NCBI GenBank assembly: GCA_003116975.1
Contig: BGKB01000180.1
Coordinates: 62,001-126,000 of the forward strand
Length of the DNA stretch: 64,000 bases
DNA from: Aurantiochytrium sp. KH105
Lineage: Eukaryota; Sar; Bigyra; Thraustochytrida; Thraustochytriidae
Direction of reading: 5' to 3'
Positions 55,123-61,483 of the stretch are shown here, piece by piece; position 1 is the first letter of the stretch, and each line of letters begins with the position of its first letter. The translations under genes and the position numbers were made by a program. The notes under the pieces were generated by a model. The model searched no databases and had not been told where the DNA came from. It worked only from the letters and a program-made list of their open reading frames with translations.

Positions 55123-56187
55123 TCACTTTGACTGAAACTCTTGCATCACAACGTGAAGGTCATCGAGAAAGCGGAAGATGCCCGGAGTCCGGTTCACCCA
55201 GTCACGAAACTGGTCTTCCGACATACTCTCCGAGGAATCTAGACCCACATCTTCCCAAACACGGTCAGCAAACAGCGAATACGATCCGCGAAGCTTGTCC
55301 TTGAAACGAGGAAGTGGGCCATCTTCAATGAGAGCTACGGCCTCTCGCGCAGCATCGTGAAAGATTGAGGCCGGAACGGCGTCATCTCCATCTCCACAGG
55401 CTGAGATTTCGGCCATGCACTTGTTGCGTACCGTGTCGGAGACGTTCACTTGATCTGTAGCCCCGACTGCAAGATACTGATCCCAAAGGCTATCGGCATA
55501 GTCGCGCGAAAACGAGGTGGAAGGCTCGTCGGCAAGATATTCGACGGCATCCACGAAGCGCAGGAGCTCGTCGGCCACCTCTGACTTGAGGTAATCCTCG
55601 AAACACTCACGACCGAGTTCGACGTTGAGAACGTTTCGCAATCGCGTACCAAGCACGGCTGCGATCATGTCATTGAACTCGCGTCGCGAGATGCTCCCGT
55701 CGCGATTTGTGTCAAAGAGGCGAAAGGCAAGCTCGACGTTGTCCTGAGCCGATCCCCGATACGTGAGCACGCAAAAGGTGACGACGAACTCTTGCGCGTT
55801 GATGCTTCCGTTCTGGTCGGCATCGAAGAACATCCACAGCTTGCTAAAGAGCTCTGGCTCGACCTTGATGCCCATGGCCTTGAAGGCTTTGCGCATTTGC
55901 GTCTTATCCATTTCATCCTTGCCGTGGTCGCCGTTTACCAGAGCTTTGAACTTGGCTTCGAGATCTGCCGCTGCCTGCGAGTGTTGGCGGTCGATCGCGC
56001 GTTTCTCGCGCGCGAGGTTCTGCAGCTGTTTTTGCTTCACCGCGTCCGAGGTCACCGCCAGTGACTTGTGGCCCGGGAGAGTCAGCTGCTGCTCCTGCGG
56101 TCCGAGCGCCCTGCGCTGGCGCGCTTCAATCTCGCTCTTGGGGCCTGCCGGCGTGCACAGCAACTTGCGCAGCGCGTTCAGGCTCAT
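55123..56187 (-). CDS. EF-hand calcium-binding protein
   Basis: 354 residues from the ATG at 56187 (MSLNALRKLLCTPAGPKSEI). The frame is open to 56376 but only from GTG. A coiled-coil-like charged region (LQNLAREKRAIDRQHSQAAA) leads to a degenerate EF-hand near MDKTQMRKAFKAMGIKVEPE, then two canonical loops: DADQNGSINAQE and DTNRDGSISRRE, about 36 residues apart as in calcineurin-B/NCS-type pairs. The C-terminal ~170 residues are helical, with DDLHVVMQEFQSK at the end, and no known domain. The spacing and the GSAQDNVELAFRLFDTNRDG element resemble calcineurin-B-like sensors. It may regulate a membrane or kinase partner; none is evident nearby apart from the divergent LRR-kinase-TIR gene. Confidence 0.75.
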   Translation of the reverse strand: MSLNALRKLLCTPAGPKSEIEARQRRALGPQEQQLTLPGHKSLAVTSDAVKQKQLQNLAREKRAIDRQHSQAAADLEAKFKALVNGDHGKDEMDKTQMRKAFKAMGIKVEPELFSKLWMFFDADQNGSINAQEFVVTFCVLTYRGSAQDNVELAFRLFDTNRDGSISRREFNDMIAAVLGTRLRNVLNVELGRECFEDYLKSEVADELLRFVDAVEYLADEPSTSFSRDYADSLWDQYLAVGATDQVNVSDTVRNKCMAEISACGDGDDAVPASIFHDAAREAVALIEDGPLPRFKDKLRGSYSLFADRVWEDVGLDSSESMSEDQFRDWVNRTPGIFRFLDDLHVVMQEFQSK

Positions 56188-57607
56188 GACGGCCACGAAC
56201 CTTTTCCCCTCAGGCTGCACCTCGTCCTTCGCCACCAGCCAGCTCGTCCACCAGCTCGACAACCTCGCACGATCGGACGCGAGTGGACGCACCAGCGAAC
56301 TCGCGCGAGCTTGCCGACAAAGAGTACGAGCGCGGCGCGGCTGGTCCGGGTCTGCCCACGCAGCAGGCTCGCCCACGTTTTGCGTTTGCCCGTGCAGTCT
56401 GCGGTCTTACTTCGAGGGCAAGCTCTGGGCCGGGCAGGTCATCAGCCACGCGATATCTGTTTGTCTTCACGTACGCTAGGCCCTGCGTGCACGTGCCGCG
56501 CACGGGCCTCTTTCATTGCGCACCGGACCCAGCAGAAGTTAAGACAAATTTGAGTTCAATTATTCCGGATCTGGTGCGCGACGCACGGTGTCCAGCGTGG
56601 GCCATCTCGTGGACTTTCACCTCGCATCGCATCGCATCGCATCGCATCGCATCGCATCGCTGCGACATGCGCGCCGGGCTAGGTCGGGACAGGGCGAGGC
56701 GAGGCGCGCGAGCCTTGACCGCGCCGCTGCGCAGCGCCGCTGCGGCGGCGGCTGGCTGCTCAGAGCGCGCGCCCTCTTCACGGCTGACCTGGCGCGTGCC
56801 CTGGGTGGCCGGCCGGGCCAGTTGCCCTAACCAAACTTACACAGTTATTACTACTACTCGGGCAGGCACGCAAGCCATGGCAACGCAACACCAGCCAGGT
56901 CGCTGCTGCCTGCTGCCGCTGCTGCAGCTGCTGACGCAGCGCGACGGCCTGCGCGAGCGCCGGTGTGCCTGCGCGTCTACCGGCGTGCCTGCGCGCGAGA
57001 CGCAGACGCTAGCAGCTGCAGCAGCAGCTACGCCGAGTATCTTGGCGCGTGCGTCCGGCCACTGCGCACAGCCAAGGTATCAAGTAGCGCGGCAAAGGGG
57101 TGTGCACCGTGTAGGCAAGTGTCTATGCTTGTGGCAAAGCGCGACCATTTCTTATACACTGCATATCGACCGCCGCCAGTCCGTATTGCTACATCGGATT
57201 GCAGCCTATCGCATGCAGTGCTGCGCTGCAGCCGCCGGTTGATGCGATGCGCAGGCGACAGCTTGGTGCGACGCGTGCAGAGGAAGGAAGAAAGTTGAAA
57301 GGAAGGCAAAGGTGGAAGGAGAGGGAAAGGAGGCGAGGAGGCGAGGAGGGCCCGGGGACCCGCGCGACCCCGCGGGAAAGGTGTGTATTGAACGGATCTC
57401 TTTCATGTAGTCTGTATGACGTGAACCTGAAGTTGGCTTGGCTTATTTGTGGCTTGCCTTACCTCGGCTTGGTGATGCTGTGATGGTTGATGTGCGAACG
57501 ATGTGCGAGGAAGATAAAGGGGCGCTGCTTTTGATGAGTAGCCAGCCACTCGCGACCAAAGGAGAGGCAGAATCATTAATTTGCCACGGCTGCCAGGCGC
57601 GGCAGCC
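56188..57607. other. Long divergent region upstream of LRR-kinase-TIR gene
   Basis: 1.4 kb with the GCATC run at 56623-56660, GC-rich sequence with CTGCTG/CAGCAG words near 56900-57040, and purine-rich GAGGCGAGGAGG words near 57310-57350. No gene supported. This is one of the two longest gene-free stretches and probably carries two promoters. Confidence 0.5.
56623..56660 (+). repeat. GCATC pentanucleotide microsatellite
   Basis: About seven and a half perfect units of GCATC between two divergent genes. Confidence 0.95.
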
Positions 57608-60600
57608 ATGGAGATGCGCGAGGCCGTGCGCAAGGCGCTCGCCGCCGTCGAAGCGGGCTGCGAAGAAGTCGTCCTCAAAGACGCTCAGCTCACAGCGAAC
57701 GAGCTCGCGAGTATCGTCGAGGTCTTGCAGAAAGACACCAAGGTACGAAAGCTTGACCTCTCCGGCAATCCAGAGCTTGGATCGCAAGCGGGCGATCTCC
57801 TGCGATCCTTGCTCCAAGTGAACGCAAGCCTCGAGGAAATCGACCTCTCTGGCTGCTCAGGTATTGGGTCAAATGGTGTCGGGCGACTTGCCGGCGGCCT
57901 GCGCGTGAACATGTCCCTGCGAGCGCTGCATCTACGCAACACCGAGATCGGGGGGTTGATGGGCAGCAAGCAGTTGTCGCGCGCGCTGCGAGCGAATTGC
58001 TCACTGGAGCATCTCGACCTTCGCATGAACGGCCTCGGGCCCAGAGGCATCAAGCATTTGGCCAAAGCGCTGGCCAAGAACCAAAGTTTGCAGGTTCTCA
58101 ATATTAGCGAGAACGACATCTCCGACGAAGGCGCCGTGCTTATTTCTAAAACCCTGCGCGAGAATCGCAGTCTCGAGAAGCTCGACATGTGGCGCAATGG
58201 AATCGGCGAGCACGGAGCCTCGCATTTGCGCGAGGCCGTGCGCCAAAATTCGGTGCTGCAGACTCTAAACGCAGAAAACGTCATTCACCGGAACGATCAC
58301 GCAAGAAGAGTCTTCCACAAACCACCATCATCGCCAACCAGTCCTGGCGCCGACCCTAACGCCCCGATGGACAGACAGAGTGCGCAACTCTTTCGGTGTC
58401 TCTTTCTGCACACCGCCGACGGCGACATGAGCTTTCGAACTGCTGGTGCAATCAGTGAAGAAGGCGAGGAGAACGAGGATGATGACGGTGGCGATGAGGA
58501 ATGCGAAAGCATGGGCGCTTTCGCAGCGGGTGCGCACGAAGCCCAAGCCCTCACGATTGATGGACCCGACGCGCAGAGCATGCTATGGGAAAGCACGCCC
58601 ATCGAGCCACTGCAATTCTCTCCAGAAGCTTTTCGTCTTGCGCGAGACGAAACAGATCTCTTTGTCTGGTGCATTGATCGTCTCTCCGAAAGCGAGGCGT
58701 ATCGCACCATCCTGCATGGTCCGCTGCGGACGTCAAGGCTGTGGCTACAAGAGATGCCGGGGGACCTTATCCCGATGGCGCACTTGATTATGGGCAACCG
58801 CGAGTCGCCGACCGGCGCCGAGATGGTGTGCACCAAGATTTTCAACAAGATGACCATTCATGAGGGTCGGCTGCTTTTCAAGGCCAAAGATAGCGCAGGG
58901 CGCACCTTTCGCTCGCTCGCCTCTGGCCATGCCAGTGACAACGTTGTAGCATGGGCAAAAGGTTACGGGACTTATCTCTTGCGGTACGACGTGCAAGACG
59001 GACCCCCTGTACACGAGAGCAAAACGTGCGCCGTTCACTTTGCCACCGATATCGTCAACGAGCAGGAAGTGGCGCTAAAGATCATGAAGGATGCCGAGCA
59101 GTTTCGCAACGAGCTCATTTCACGCGGGCTCATCTCGCCCAACGACAAGCTCGAGACCCTCTCCGATGTCTTGGAGGCCAGTCCAGAGGCCGAGAGCCGT
59201 CTGACCCACGTCGTTCCCATCGTGCGCGCTCATTGCGCCGACAAGTGCATTGTCATGCCACGCGCGACTCGCTCTCTCTTCGAGGCCATTAACACGGAGC
59301 AGTTTGTCGGTCGTCAGCTTGGAAAAATTCGCGCAATTGCGCACGCGCTTGCGGTGGCGCTGCTCGAGCTTCAGGTCCAGGGCCGAATTCACGCAGACAT
59401 CAAACCACGAAATTTCGTTCGCGTCTCTAAGAGCTCACCGCAAACTTTTGAGGCAGCCAACGGCGCCTTGGACCTGAGTGCGAGTTGGCGGGGCACTTCG
59501 TCCAGGTCGGTTCGCAGCGACACATTTGATGAGAGCGACGGTGTAGAAGTCGACGCAGACTCATCCTGTCCTGCGGGAAGCAACGAGGTCTGGCAGCTCA
59601 TTGACCTCGACGCATCTGTCAAGCTCGGCGAACTTGCCGGCGAAAAGCACAGTAGTGGGTACTGCCCCCCAGAACTCGCTCGCAACCTCTTTCCCCACGG
59701 TGCGAGCGGGACCGTGGTTGCGGGTTCGGGGTTTGATGTGTGGAGTTTTGGCGCGATCCTCTACCAGATGCTCTCCGGTACAAAGCTCTTCATGGTAGAC
59801 GAGACGGACGATAACCTCGTCAATTTTTACGAAAAAGCCGAGCTTTGCAACTGGATTGCAATCGACCGCGACCGTCTTGATCGCATCAACAATGTTGAGT
59901 GGCCGCGGTGGGAAATGGAATACGCCAAGGACCTTGTGCGTGGCTGTCTTATGGGTGACCCCTCGGAACGTCTGCAGCTTGCGGACGTTCTCAAACATCC
60001 CTTTTTTACGACGGCTCGAGGCCGGGCCTCGCTGGCAGAACGCGTAGACGCTGCAGCAGCTGCTGCGGCTGCTACTGTTGCTGCCACTGGCAATTCTTCT
60101 GGCACGAAAGCTTTATCGACGGAGTCCAAAGACGAAGGTGAATCAATATCGGGGTCGTCGCCGCCGCCCATGGACGCCACAAGACGCATTCTGTCTTTCC
60201 GGGTCAAGGTCGAGCAGCCGTCAGGGGGCGGCGCTGCACGAGCCAAAGGTCTTCCCCAGCGCAGACGCGCAGAGCTCGAGACGGTTTTCCCGCAGCGATA
60301 CCATTATTTCCTCTCGCACATGCAAAAGGAGGCCGCCGGTATCGTCAAGGACCTGTACCTGAATCTGACCGAGGCTCGATGTTTAGCATGGATCGACATG
60401 CATGCTGAGGATCTGACGCAGGAATCGATGCGCCAAGGTGTCGAGAACTCGAGCTATTACGTCCTCGTGCTCACGCGCAACGTACTTTTCCGGCCCTTTT
60501 GCGTAATGGAGCTCTTTTGGGCGATTCAACACCATGGGGACGAGTCGGAGCGGCGTATCTTCTTTATTGTGGAAGAAGATTCGCGTTTTTCGCCTTGGAA

Positions 60601-61483
60601 TCAGGATCTCGATGTGCCTTGGCTTTCCACGGGAGAGCTCGCCGAGGCGCTTCGGGCTTGCAAAGGGGCGGGATTGACCTCGGAGGCTGAGGCAAGTCGC
60701 ACTGAGGCGTACCACGCAGCGCAGAGCGCGCTCAAGGCTGGCCTGCAATCTTTGCTGGAAAGTGATGCCCGTGCGGATCCTCGTCTTGGTGTCGATGACA
60801 TTCTGTGTGCTGCGAAAAAGTACGTGACACAAGGCGTAAAAATTCCGTACCGCCGCCGAGCTTTTGAGGAAGCGGCCATGATCGAGGAGCTGCTCGCAGT
60901 GAGCAGCTATTGCTCGCCGCACGCTTTGCGCGAGTCCGCGGCTGCTGGGGACCAGTCCTCGCAAGAGGATGCCACAGTGAAGGATGTCTATATTTTATAC
61001 CACGAAAGTGGTGCTACCGTGGCCAAGGAATTGGCGAGCTCGATGCGAGAGAGTCCGGGTGTGCAGCTCCATGGCGATCATTATACGCTGCAGTCGCAGG
61101 TTCTTGCGACCGCAATGGTGCAAAAGCTGCAACGGAGGGTCAAAGCAGATGCATTGCTCATCATTCTCCTCAAGGACGGATTTTTTAACAAGGGCAGCTC
61201 GCTTGTGCAGGAAGTCTTGCAGTCTTGGGTATGCGAGCAGGGGCGACCATTTGTCATGTTGCAATACGATTGGTCCTTTGGCGGGCCGGAACAGGAAGGG
61301 GTGCAGCCAGAGTTACGTTCTGCACTTTTCGATCTCACAGAAATTATGCCGTATCGTAAGCTTGAGCGCAAACATGAGCATCACGCCATGCTCAAGGAGA
61401 CGAAGCGTCGACTCATGCTCAACGCCGCGAGATATGAGGCTGCATCAACGGCGTTGAGGAAGACCATGCTTGCTCATACGTAG
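57608..61483 (+). CDS. LRR - protein kinase - TIR multidomain protein
   Basis: 1291 residues from the ATG at 57608 (MEMREAVRKALAAVEAG). Residues ~28-228 are RNI-type leucine-rich repeats (KLDLSGNPELGSQAGDLLRS, EEIDLSGCSGIGSNGVGRLA, QVLNISENDISDEGAVLISK). An acidic linker follows. A kinase domain spans ~455-800: Lys in VALKIM (~489), IHADIKPRNF (~594), LIDLDASVKL replacing DFG (~666), CPPELAR, DVWSFGAILYQMLSG, PSERLQLADVLKHPFF. After an Ala-rich linker, ~896-1010 is a TIR domain: YHYFLSHMQ, WIDMHAEDLTQESMRQGVEN, SYYVLVLTRNVLFRPFCVME, with the Glu (~966) at the position of the TIR NADase glutamate. A second, weaker TIR-like unit runs from ~1125 (VYILYHESG, LLIILLKDGFFNKGSSLVQE). No transmembrane segment, so cytosolic. 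Immune or cell-death signalling is inferred. Stops with TAG. Confidence 0.85.
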   Translation: MEMREAVRKALAAVEAGCEEVVLKDAQLTANELASIVEVLQKDTKVRKLDLSGNPELGSQAGDLLRSLLQVNASLEEIDLSGCSGIGSNGVGRLAGGLRVNMSLRALHLRNTEIGGLMGSKQLSRALRANCSLEHLDLRMNGLGPRGIKHLAKALAKNQSLQVLNISENDISDEGAVLISKTLRENRSLEKLDMWRNGIGEHGASHLREAVRQNSVLQTLNAENVIHRNDHARRVFHKPPSSPTSPGADPNAPMDRQSAQLFRCLFLHTADGDMSFRTAGAISEEGEENEDDDGGDEECESMGAFAAGAHEAQALTIDGPDAQSMLWESTPIEPLQFSPEAFRLARDETDLFVWCIDRLSESEAYRTILHGPLRTSRLWLQEMPGDLIPMAHLIMGNRESPTGAEMVCTKIFNKMTIHEGRLLFKAKDSAGRTFRSLASGHASDNVVAWAKGYGTYLLRYDVQDGPPVHESKTCAVHFATDIVNEQEVALKIMKDAEQFRNELISRGLISPNDKLETLSDVLEASPEAESRLTHVVPIVRAHCADKCIVMPRATRSLFEAINTEQFVGRQLGKIRAIAHALAVALLELQVQGRIHADIKPRNFVRVSKSSPQTFEAANGALDLSASWRGTSSRSVRSDTFDESDGVEVDADSSCPAGSNEVWQLIDLDASVKLGELAGEKHSSGYCPPELARNLFPHGASGTVVAGSGFDVWSFGAILYQMLSGTKLFMVDETDDNLVNFYEKAELCNWIAIDRDRLDRINNVEWPRWEMEYAKDLVRGCLMGDPSERLQLADVLKHPFFTTARGRASLAERVDAAAAAAAATVAATGNSSGTKALSTESKDEGESISGSSPPPMDATRRILSFRVKVEQPSGGGAARAKGLPQRRRAELETVFPQRYHYFLSHMQKEAAGIVKDLYLNLTEARCLAWIDMHAEDLTQESMRQGVENSSYYVLVLTRNVLFRPFCVMELFWAIQHHGDESERRIFFIVEEDSRFSPWNQDLDVPWLSTGELAEALRACKGAGLTSEAEASRTEAYHAAQSALKAGLQSLLESDARADPRLGVDDILCAAKKYVTQGVKIPYRRRAFEEAAMIEELLAVSSYCSPHALRESAAAGDQSSQEDATVKDVYILYHESGATVAKELASSMRESPGVQLHGDHYTLQSQVLATAMVQKLQRRVKADALLIILLKDGFFNKGSSLVQEVLQSWVCEQGRPFVMLQYDWSFGGPEQEGVQPELRSALFDLTEIMPYRKLERKHEHHAMLKETKRRLMLNAARYEAASTALRKTMLAHT

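Follow-up and report, generated by a model that had tools for sequence, protein, structure and literature searches.

Proteins that join a kinase directly to a TIR domain are known from choanoflagellates. In the main text of Richter et al. 2018 (PMC6040629), "Kinase TLRs" (leucine-rich repeats, transmembrane segment, kinase and TIR domain; LRR-TM-kinase-TIR) and "Kinase TIRs" are described and called unique to choanoflagellates, and neither "labyrinthul" nor "stramenopile" occurs in it. No publication on TIR-kinase proteins of thraustochytrids was found among the best-ranked matches in the open-licence literature. Here, we describe a gene of the marine thraustochytrid Aurantiochytrium sp. KH105, located in a stretch of 64,000 nucleotides of contig BGKB01000180.1 (the window). 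Its product combines leucine-rich repeats (LRRs) of the ribonuclease-inhibitor (RNI) type, a protein kinase domain, a TIR domain (TIR1) and a second, degenerate TIR (TIR2). The nearest described architecture is that of the choanoflagellate Kinase TIRs and Kinase TLRs, and the order found in the window is a variant of it, distinguished by RNI repeats and an additional TIR. A preliminary description of the locus had recognized no well-described family with this domain order. That statement is superseded by the account of Richter et al. (PMC6040629): because its main text already describes choanoflagellate counterparts, the architecture is a variant of a described one in a distant lineage.

The choanoflagellate proteins likewise join the kinase directly to the TIR domain, and the Kinase TLRs add LRRs. 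Unlike them, as far as they are described in the main text of that study, the window protein has an RNI-type LRR, a second pseudo-TIR, a stramenopile host and no clear transmembrane stretch, since the highest hydropathy over 19 residues was 1.39, inside TIR1 (hydropathy scan only). The same scan revealed no clear transmembrane segment of the kind that a Toll-like receptor (TLR) or Kinase TLR has between LRR and TIR. Kinase and TIR share a single chain in the window protein, with no clear transmembrane segment, which is how Kinase TIRs are defined there. No choanoflagellate-labelled protein was among the matches listed in three homology searches, in which candidates were capped at about 8000 and most rows carried no organism label.

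The coding frame (57608..61483, plus strand) starts with an ATG at 57608, runs unbroken for 1291 codons to a stop codon at 61481-61483 and needs no intron. The genome comprises 76.0 Mb in 367 contigs and looks diploid. Contig C53 contains a second copy of the gene with 98.6% protein identity, which looks like the allele on the other haplotype. The nearest public protein, "Protein NLRC3" of Hondaea fermentalgiana (P0002, 1291 aa; Hondaea is a thraustochytrid stramenopile), differs at three residues (88, 273 and 368). Two orthologues, P0003 (68% identity across the region searched) and P0004 (53%), have a domain order identical to that of the window gene, and in the tree they form one clade with C53 and the window gene (support 1.0). 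That neighbouring LRR, kinase and TIR genes were merged by assembly or read-through is very hard to reconcile with 1291 codons without a stop, with the identical structure of the C53 copy and with the domain order kept in both public orthologues. A gene-fusion artefact was rejected on the latter two observations. The domain architecture is near certain, and the four modules in a single frame and a single gene, as originally proposed, stand.

The window gene and C53 differ at 18 of 1291 amino acids with a ratio of nonsynonymous to synonymous substitution rates (dN/dS) of 0.076, and the window gene is under purifying selection. In ten other close family pairs, dN/dS ranged from 0.108 to 0.395; comparisons of the window gene with three distant paralogues were saturated. 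By region, the two copies differ at 0 of 107 residues in the TIR1 core and at 1 of 235 in the LRR. The adjoining frame on the minus strand (55123-56376 of the window) encodes EF hands and an RGS domain. TTAGGG occurred only once in total at three contig-end stretches, and there was therefore no sign of a telomere.

The RNI-type LRRs occupy residues ~20-235 (57665..58312, plus strand). They were recognized by LRR_6 above the Pfam cut-off (E 4.2e-18), in agreement with the preliminary description, and contain seven LxxLxLxxN motifs at the 28-29 residue spacing of RNI-type repeats; ribonuclease-inhibitor chains are among their PDB matches. At the two exposed positions of each of the seven LxLxxN strands, the window protein is identical to P0003 at 14 of 14 positions (150/215 over the whole LRR region) and to P0004 at 10 of 14 (111/214). 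The putative recognition surface of the window gene thus looks conserved. The following middle region (residues 236-455; 58313..58972, plus strand) has no Pfam match; ankyrin-type kinase-TIR relatives have a pre-kinase stretch to which its end can be aligned. Neither NACHT nor NB-ARC was among the Pfam families listed for the window protein at E values up to 5. The membership in the nucleotide-binding LRR (NLR) proteins implied by the public name "NLRC3" was rejected on this ground; as only the LRR resembles such proteins and no NACHT was found, the name is a misnomer.

The protein kinase domain spans residues ~456-815 (58973..60052, plus strand; Pkinase E 4.2e-18 on the searched piece, above the cut-off). 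CLK and DYRK kinases were the first PDB matches of a profile including the kinase, which is a statement about the fold only. Residues were surveyed in the 39 sequences that also entered the tree: the window protein, 22 loci of the same genome and 16 public or environmental proteins. The incomplete models P0010 and P0011 and the short or broken loci C96, C182, C171, C21c and C116 were left out. K491, E502, H595, D597, N602, D666, D668 and E689 are invariant in this set. They include the ATP-binding lysine (K491; 59078..59080, plus strand), the HxD of the catalytic loop (H595-A-D597; 59390..59398, plus strand) and, judging by its position, a putative helix-C Glu (E502). The DFG motif is replaced by D666-L667-D668 (59603..59611, plus strand); its Gly is thus absent, and Leu occupies position 667 in 34 of 39 members. 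The Lys, the helix-C Glu position, the HxD and the DFG Asp are therefore all present in 39/39 sequences. The lysine, HxD and Asp-Leu-Asp reported at the outset were borne out, and the kinase may be active.

TIR1 comprises residues 894-1106 (60287..60925, plus strand), with a helical insertion ahead of the last strand. Residues 896-1010 had been singled out as the part that should fold as a TIR, and residues 894-1106 do so: among the best 50 of the 1000 best chains returned by Foldseek, the best matches were SARM1, Caenorhabditis elegans TIR-1, RUN1 and SPARTA TIRs. The domain has the flavodoxin-like TIR fold and scores above the Pfam cut-off for TIR_2. The putative catalytic Glu lies in C965-V-M-E968 (60500..60511, plus strand), three residues downstream of a Cys; E968 is conserved in 36 of 39 family members, three loosely aligning ankyrin-type rows included, and C965 in 35 of 39. 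In ten sequence alignments, E968 falls on a Glu of bacterial TIRs, including TcpB, or of Cat1, which we take to be catalytic in these proteins. CVME also fits the plant WC-x-x-E motif: flax L6 carries WCLMEL, and the Glu of the plant WCLxEL is the residue mutated in the RUN1 E100A structure. A conserved helix-C Glu of the NADase type is thus supported by sequence alignment and by the plant motif, as first suggested. We consider it somewhat more likely than not that TIR1 is an NAD-cleaving enzyme; it may cleave NAD+ or make a nucleotide signal.

The last strand of TIR1 carries the motif IPYRRR (residues 1079-1084; 60842..60859, plus strand), which is echoed as MPYRKL close to the end of TIR2. 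TIR2 (residues 1118-1280; 60959..61447, plus strand) had been noticed early as a TIR-like fold, and this was upheld. Pfam found no match between residue 1110 and the C terminus; the second TIR fold was detected by a profile comparison with TIR1 (controlled by 150 shuffles, match columns only) and by fold evidence. It is degenerate and lacks the Glu, a Gln being aligned at the E968 position. In the prokaryotic library NCBIfam, the window protein had two weak rows. PADLOC gave six rows, chiefly at the kinase level (mad6, E 2.9e-15), with one TIR row (E 0.0013).

SARM1 and C. elegans TIR-1 have ARM and SAM domains where the window protein has LRR and kinase, and one TIR per chain. Plant TIR-NB-LRR receptors are sensor families with diversified LRRs. 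Those compared here (RUN1, RPP1, Roq1, L6) likewise combine LRRs with a TIR carrying the Cys-x-x-Glu motif; unlike them, the window protein begins with the LRR, has the TIR in its C-terminal third and contains a kinase, and no NB-ARC was found in it. With NLRC3 it shares the RNI-type LRR but not the NACHT domain, which was not found.

A search of the whole genome yielded 58 matching pieces, and 28 stretches were examined. Of these, 22 contain a TIR-motif frame 806-1565 codons long, one being the allele on C53. These 22 further long kinase-TIR frames are new here, and many of the others form close pairs. The kinases of C16b and C41a were missed by the regular expression; that of C16b was found by Pfam. 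C16b and the public protein P0040 constitute a second LRR-kinase-TIR lineage. Five loci are short or broken (L031-L035 on contigs C116, C96, C182, C171 and C21) and point to gains and losses of family members by birth and death. The protein encoded in stretch C204 is a different one, LRR-Roc-COR-TIR.

Most paralogue frames begin downstream of the LRR. An initial LRR-unit pattern was found upstream of the frames at 0 of 27 loci; a looser pattern matched at 17 of 27 loci on the sense strand and at none on the antisense strand. Tandem Repeats Finder reported a 341-base unit at C69 (L025), in 5.3 copies with 88% matches. When exons flanked by AG and GT and with a length divisible by three were sought, 116 LRR mini-exons were recovered at 21 of 27 loci, broken loci included; 103 were 84 nucleotides (nt) long and 11 were 87 nt. 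Frame neutrality follows from the imposed length rule and so does not count as a separate finding, whereas the dominance of 84 nt does. Examples of such arrays are the stretches L025:1-2600, L015:1-2600 and L011:1-2200. Splicing probably joins the mini-exons to the kinase-TIR frames. Of eight C21b units tested, four have their core residues reproduced exactly in the public model P0007, fused to kinase and TIR; this supports splicing at the level of annotation rather than of RNA.

Variation among the mini-exons is concentrated in codons 2 and 3, which encode the exposed LxLxxN residues. In 52 units from 15 loci (80 within-locus pairs at ≥70% identity), the proportion of nonsynonymous differences (pN) was 0.56 at these two codons and 0.09 at the other 25, and that of synonymous differences (pS) was 0.20 overall. 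At the nucleotide level, the exposed codons diverged more than the remainder of the exon in all 15 loci and more than the introns in 9 of 11; at C69, the values were 0.65 for exposed codons, 0.15 for the rest of the exon and 0.078 for introns. Relaxed constraint with gene conversion around it, instead of selection for recognition, could produce such a pattern. It would fit the high pS at the two codons (0.47; pN/pS 1.20), the two of 11 measurable arrays in which introns diverge equally or more (C47 and C21a), and the design of the comparison, as the unit pattern fixed positions 1, 4, 6, a Gly and two end positions, which lowered diversity there, and pairs below 70% identity were excluded. It fits poorly with the introns that align well (C69, 0.078; C16a, 0.163; C116, 0.165), compared with 0.65, 0.53 and 0.70 at the codons, and with the other pattern-free positions, none of which exceeded a pN of 0.30 (position 26). 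We regard this explanation as rather unlikely. Close locus pairs are not independent, and five loci rest on one unit pair each; given this, the high pS and the fixed positions, whole codons changing in concert, or gene conversion, may be part of the cause. Even so, the mini-exon pattern is what diversifying receptors show, and disease-resistance receptors likewise vary most at their exposed sensing positions.

Relatives outside the genome vary around the same kinase-TIR core. Among environmental proteins, P0020 is a kinase-TIR and P0022 an LRR-kinase-TIR, both with a TIR2-like end; P0023, P0025 and P0027 are further family members, and there is a distant set, several of which have ankyrin repeats. 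The environmental kinase-TIR proteins P0012-P0019, P0026 and P0043 share the DLD kinase, the pre-kinase stretch and a TIR after the kinase. Ankyrin repeats were detected by Pfam in P0013, P0014, P0017, P0019, P0026 and P0043 and were not seen in the others. The TIR of this set is of a different subtype, and the three members that were aligned (P0012, P0014 and P0017) lack the PYRRR ending. P0041, encoded on a 3.1-kb metagenome contig, contains LRR_6 and the same kinase, with 32% identity over 378 residues, and Peptidase_C14 (E 9.7e-18) replaces the TIR. Candidate His and Cys residues of this caspase-like domain were seen by eye (SHG, DCCHAG) in this one contig. TIR and caspase-like domains are treated as alternative effectors of prokaryotic conflict systems in the passages of PMC7159879 and PMC8195603 that deal with them.

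The genome contains at least 150 TIR_2 matches above the cut-off, counted over both haplotypes; this is a lower bound because 150 of 258 candidates were scored, and the contig of the window was not among the rows listed. In 61 of the 150, the TIR shares an open frame with a Roc domain, always N-terminal of the TIR (61/61), and seven further TIR matches lie near a Roc frame. This count used 78 of 150 Roc rows, those left out being mostly small-GTPase frames. Roc-TIR frames are located at L036:520-4809 (minus strand), L038:3259-6483 (minus strand) and 59 further places; two were analysed by Pfam, one with LRRs and one with WD40 repeats, both with COR. NB-ARC had two rows in the genome (27 and 25.2 bits; cut-off 23.5) and NACHT had 17, of which 15 were above the cut-off.

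We lean, by a modest degree, toward the window protein being a cytosolic single-chain receptor, kinase and NADase, and the conserved member of a diversifying immune-like family. The RNI-type LRR would sense a ligand or partner, the DLD-family kinase would act as a switch or amplifier, and TIR1, with the Glu of NAD-cleaving TIRs, would be the output. TIR2, the Glu-less pseudo-TIR, probably packs on TIR1 and may hold or gate it, thereby regulating it. Whereas the window gene itself would be the conserved member, its paralogues within the genome resemble diversifying receptors built on the same kinase-TIR-TIR chassis. Several points weigh against this. Similarity of fold shows no function. The glycine-rich loop is absent from the kinase (GPPVHESKTCAVHFATD in its place), so that the domain could have little activity or be a pseudokinase. 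Gly takes the E968 position (CLAGL) in one paralogue (C21b, C68 and public P0007), a candidate for a natural non-enzymatic member (L011 on C68, L012 on C21, P0007), and P0007 and P0010 score below the Pfam cut-off for TIR_2. The pS at the hypervariable codons is itself high, as given above, and with its single difference to the allele the LRR of the window gene is not diversifying; the hypervariability is therefore evidence on its relatives.

A scaffold would account for part of these data: TIR1 and TIR2 would drive homotypic assembly, as in TLR/MyD88/IRAK, without NAD cleavage and with the kinase as the output. The stricter conservation of the kinase residues (39/39) than of E968 (36/39) points in this direction, a second, Glu-less TIR fits an assembly role, and the main text of Richter et al. 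(PMC6040629) proposes that kinase-bearing TLR/TIR proteins provide a streamlined signalling route. E968 would then have been kept for structure or by descent. We give both this scaffold and its explanation of E968 about one chance in four, set against the conserved NADase-type Glu. We rate equally low a non-immune receptor for self or kin, prey bacteria or developmental signals, with the diversified paralogues as recognition genes. No pathogen link emerged, nor was one tested for, and hypervariable LRRs could equally serve the recognition of kin or food. However, the use of TIR and caspase-like outputs with one chassis is characteristic of death and defence systems, according to the same passages of PMC7159879 and PMC8195603, and TIR and Roc-TIR frames abound in the genome. 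The immune-like role gains indirect support from the family, with its hypervariable LRR mini-exon arrays, copy expansion and caspase swap. We consider defence or controlled cell death the slightly better supported pathway role for the proposed receptor.

That the window gene is the conserved hub of a diversified sensor set is a tentative suggestion. Equally speculative is a cytosolic immune-receptor network of thraustochytrids with hardly any NB-ARC genes, in which fast-evolving LRR-kinase-TIR-TIR sensors, built from 84-nt mini-exons with hypervariable contact codons, would work with the conserved window gene as hub through TIR-TIR pairing. If the receptor reading is true, a logic like that of plant NLRs (conserved core, diversified LRR sensors and TIR output) would exist in a single-celled stramenopile, remote from both plants and animals. 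It would also become possible to test how LRR-TIR immunity originated, with sensor, switch and effector in one protein. If the network exists, diversified LRR receptors with a death-type output would have been invented a third time, in addition to the NLRs of plants and of animals. The question of modular receptor repertoires is usually posed in plants and jawless vertebrates; the caspase-for-TIR swap and the mini-exon LRR arrays suggest that this family, too, has a modular and quickly evolvable repertoire.

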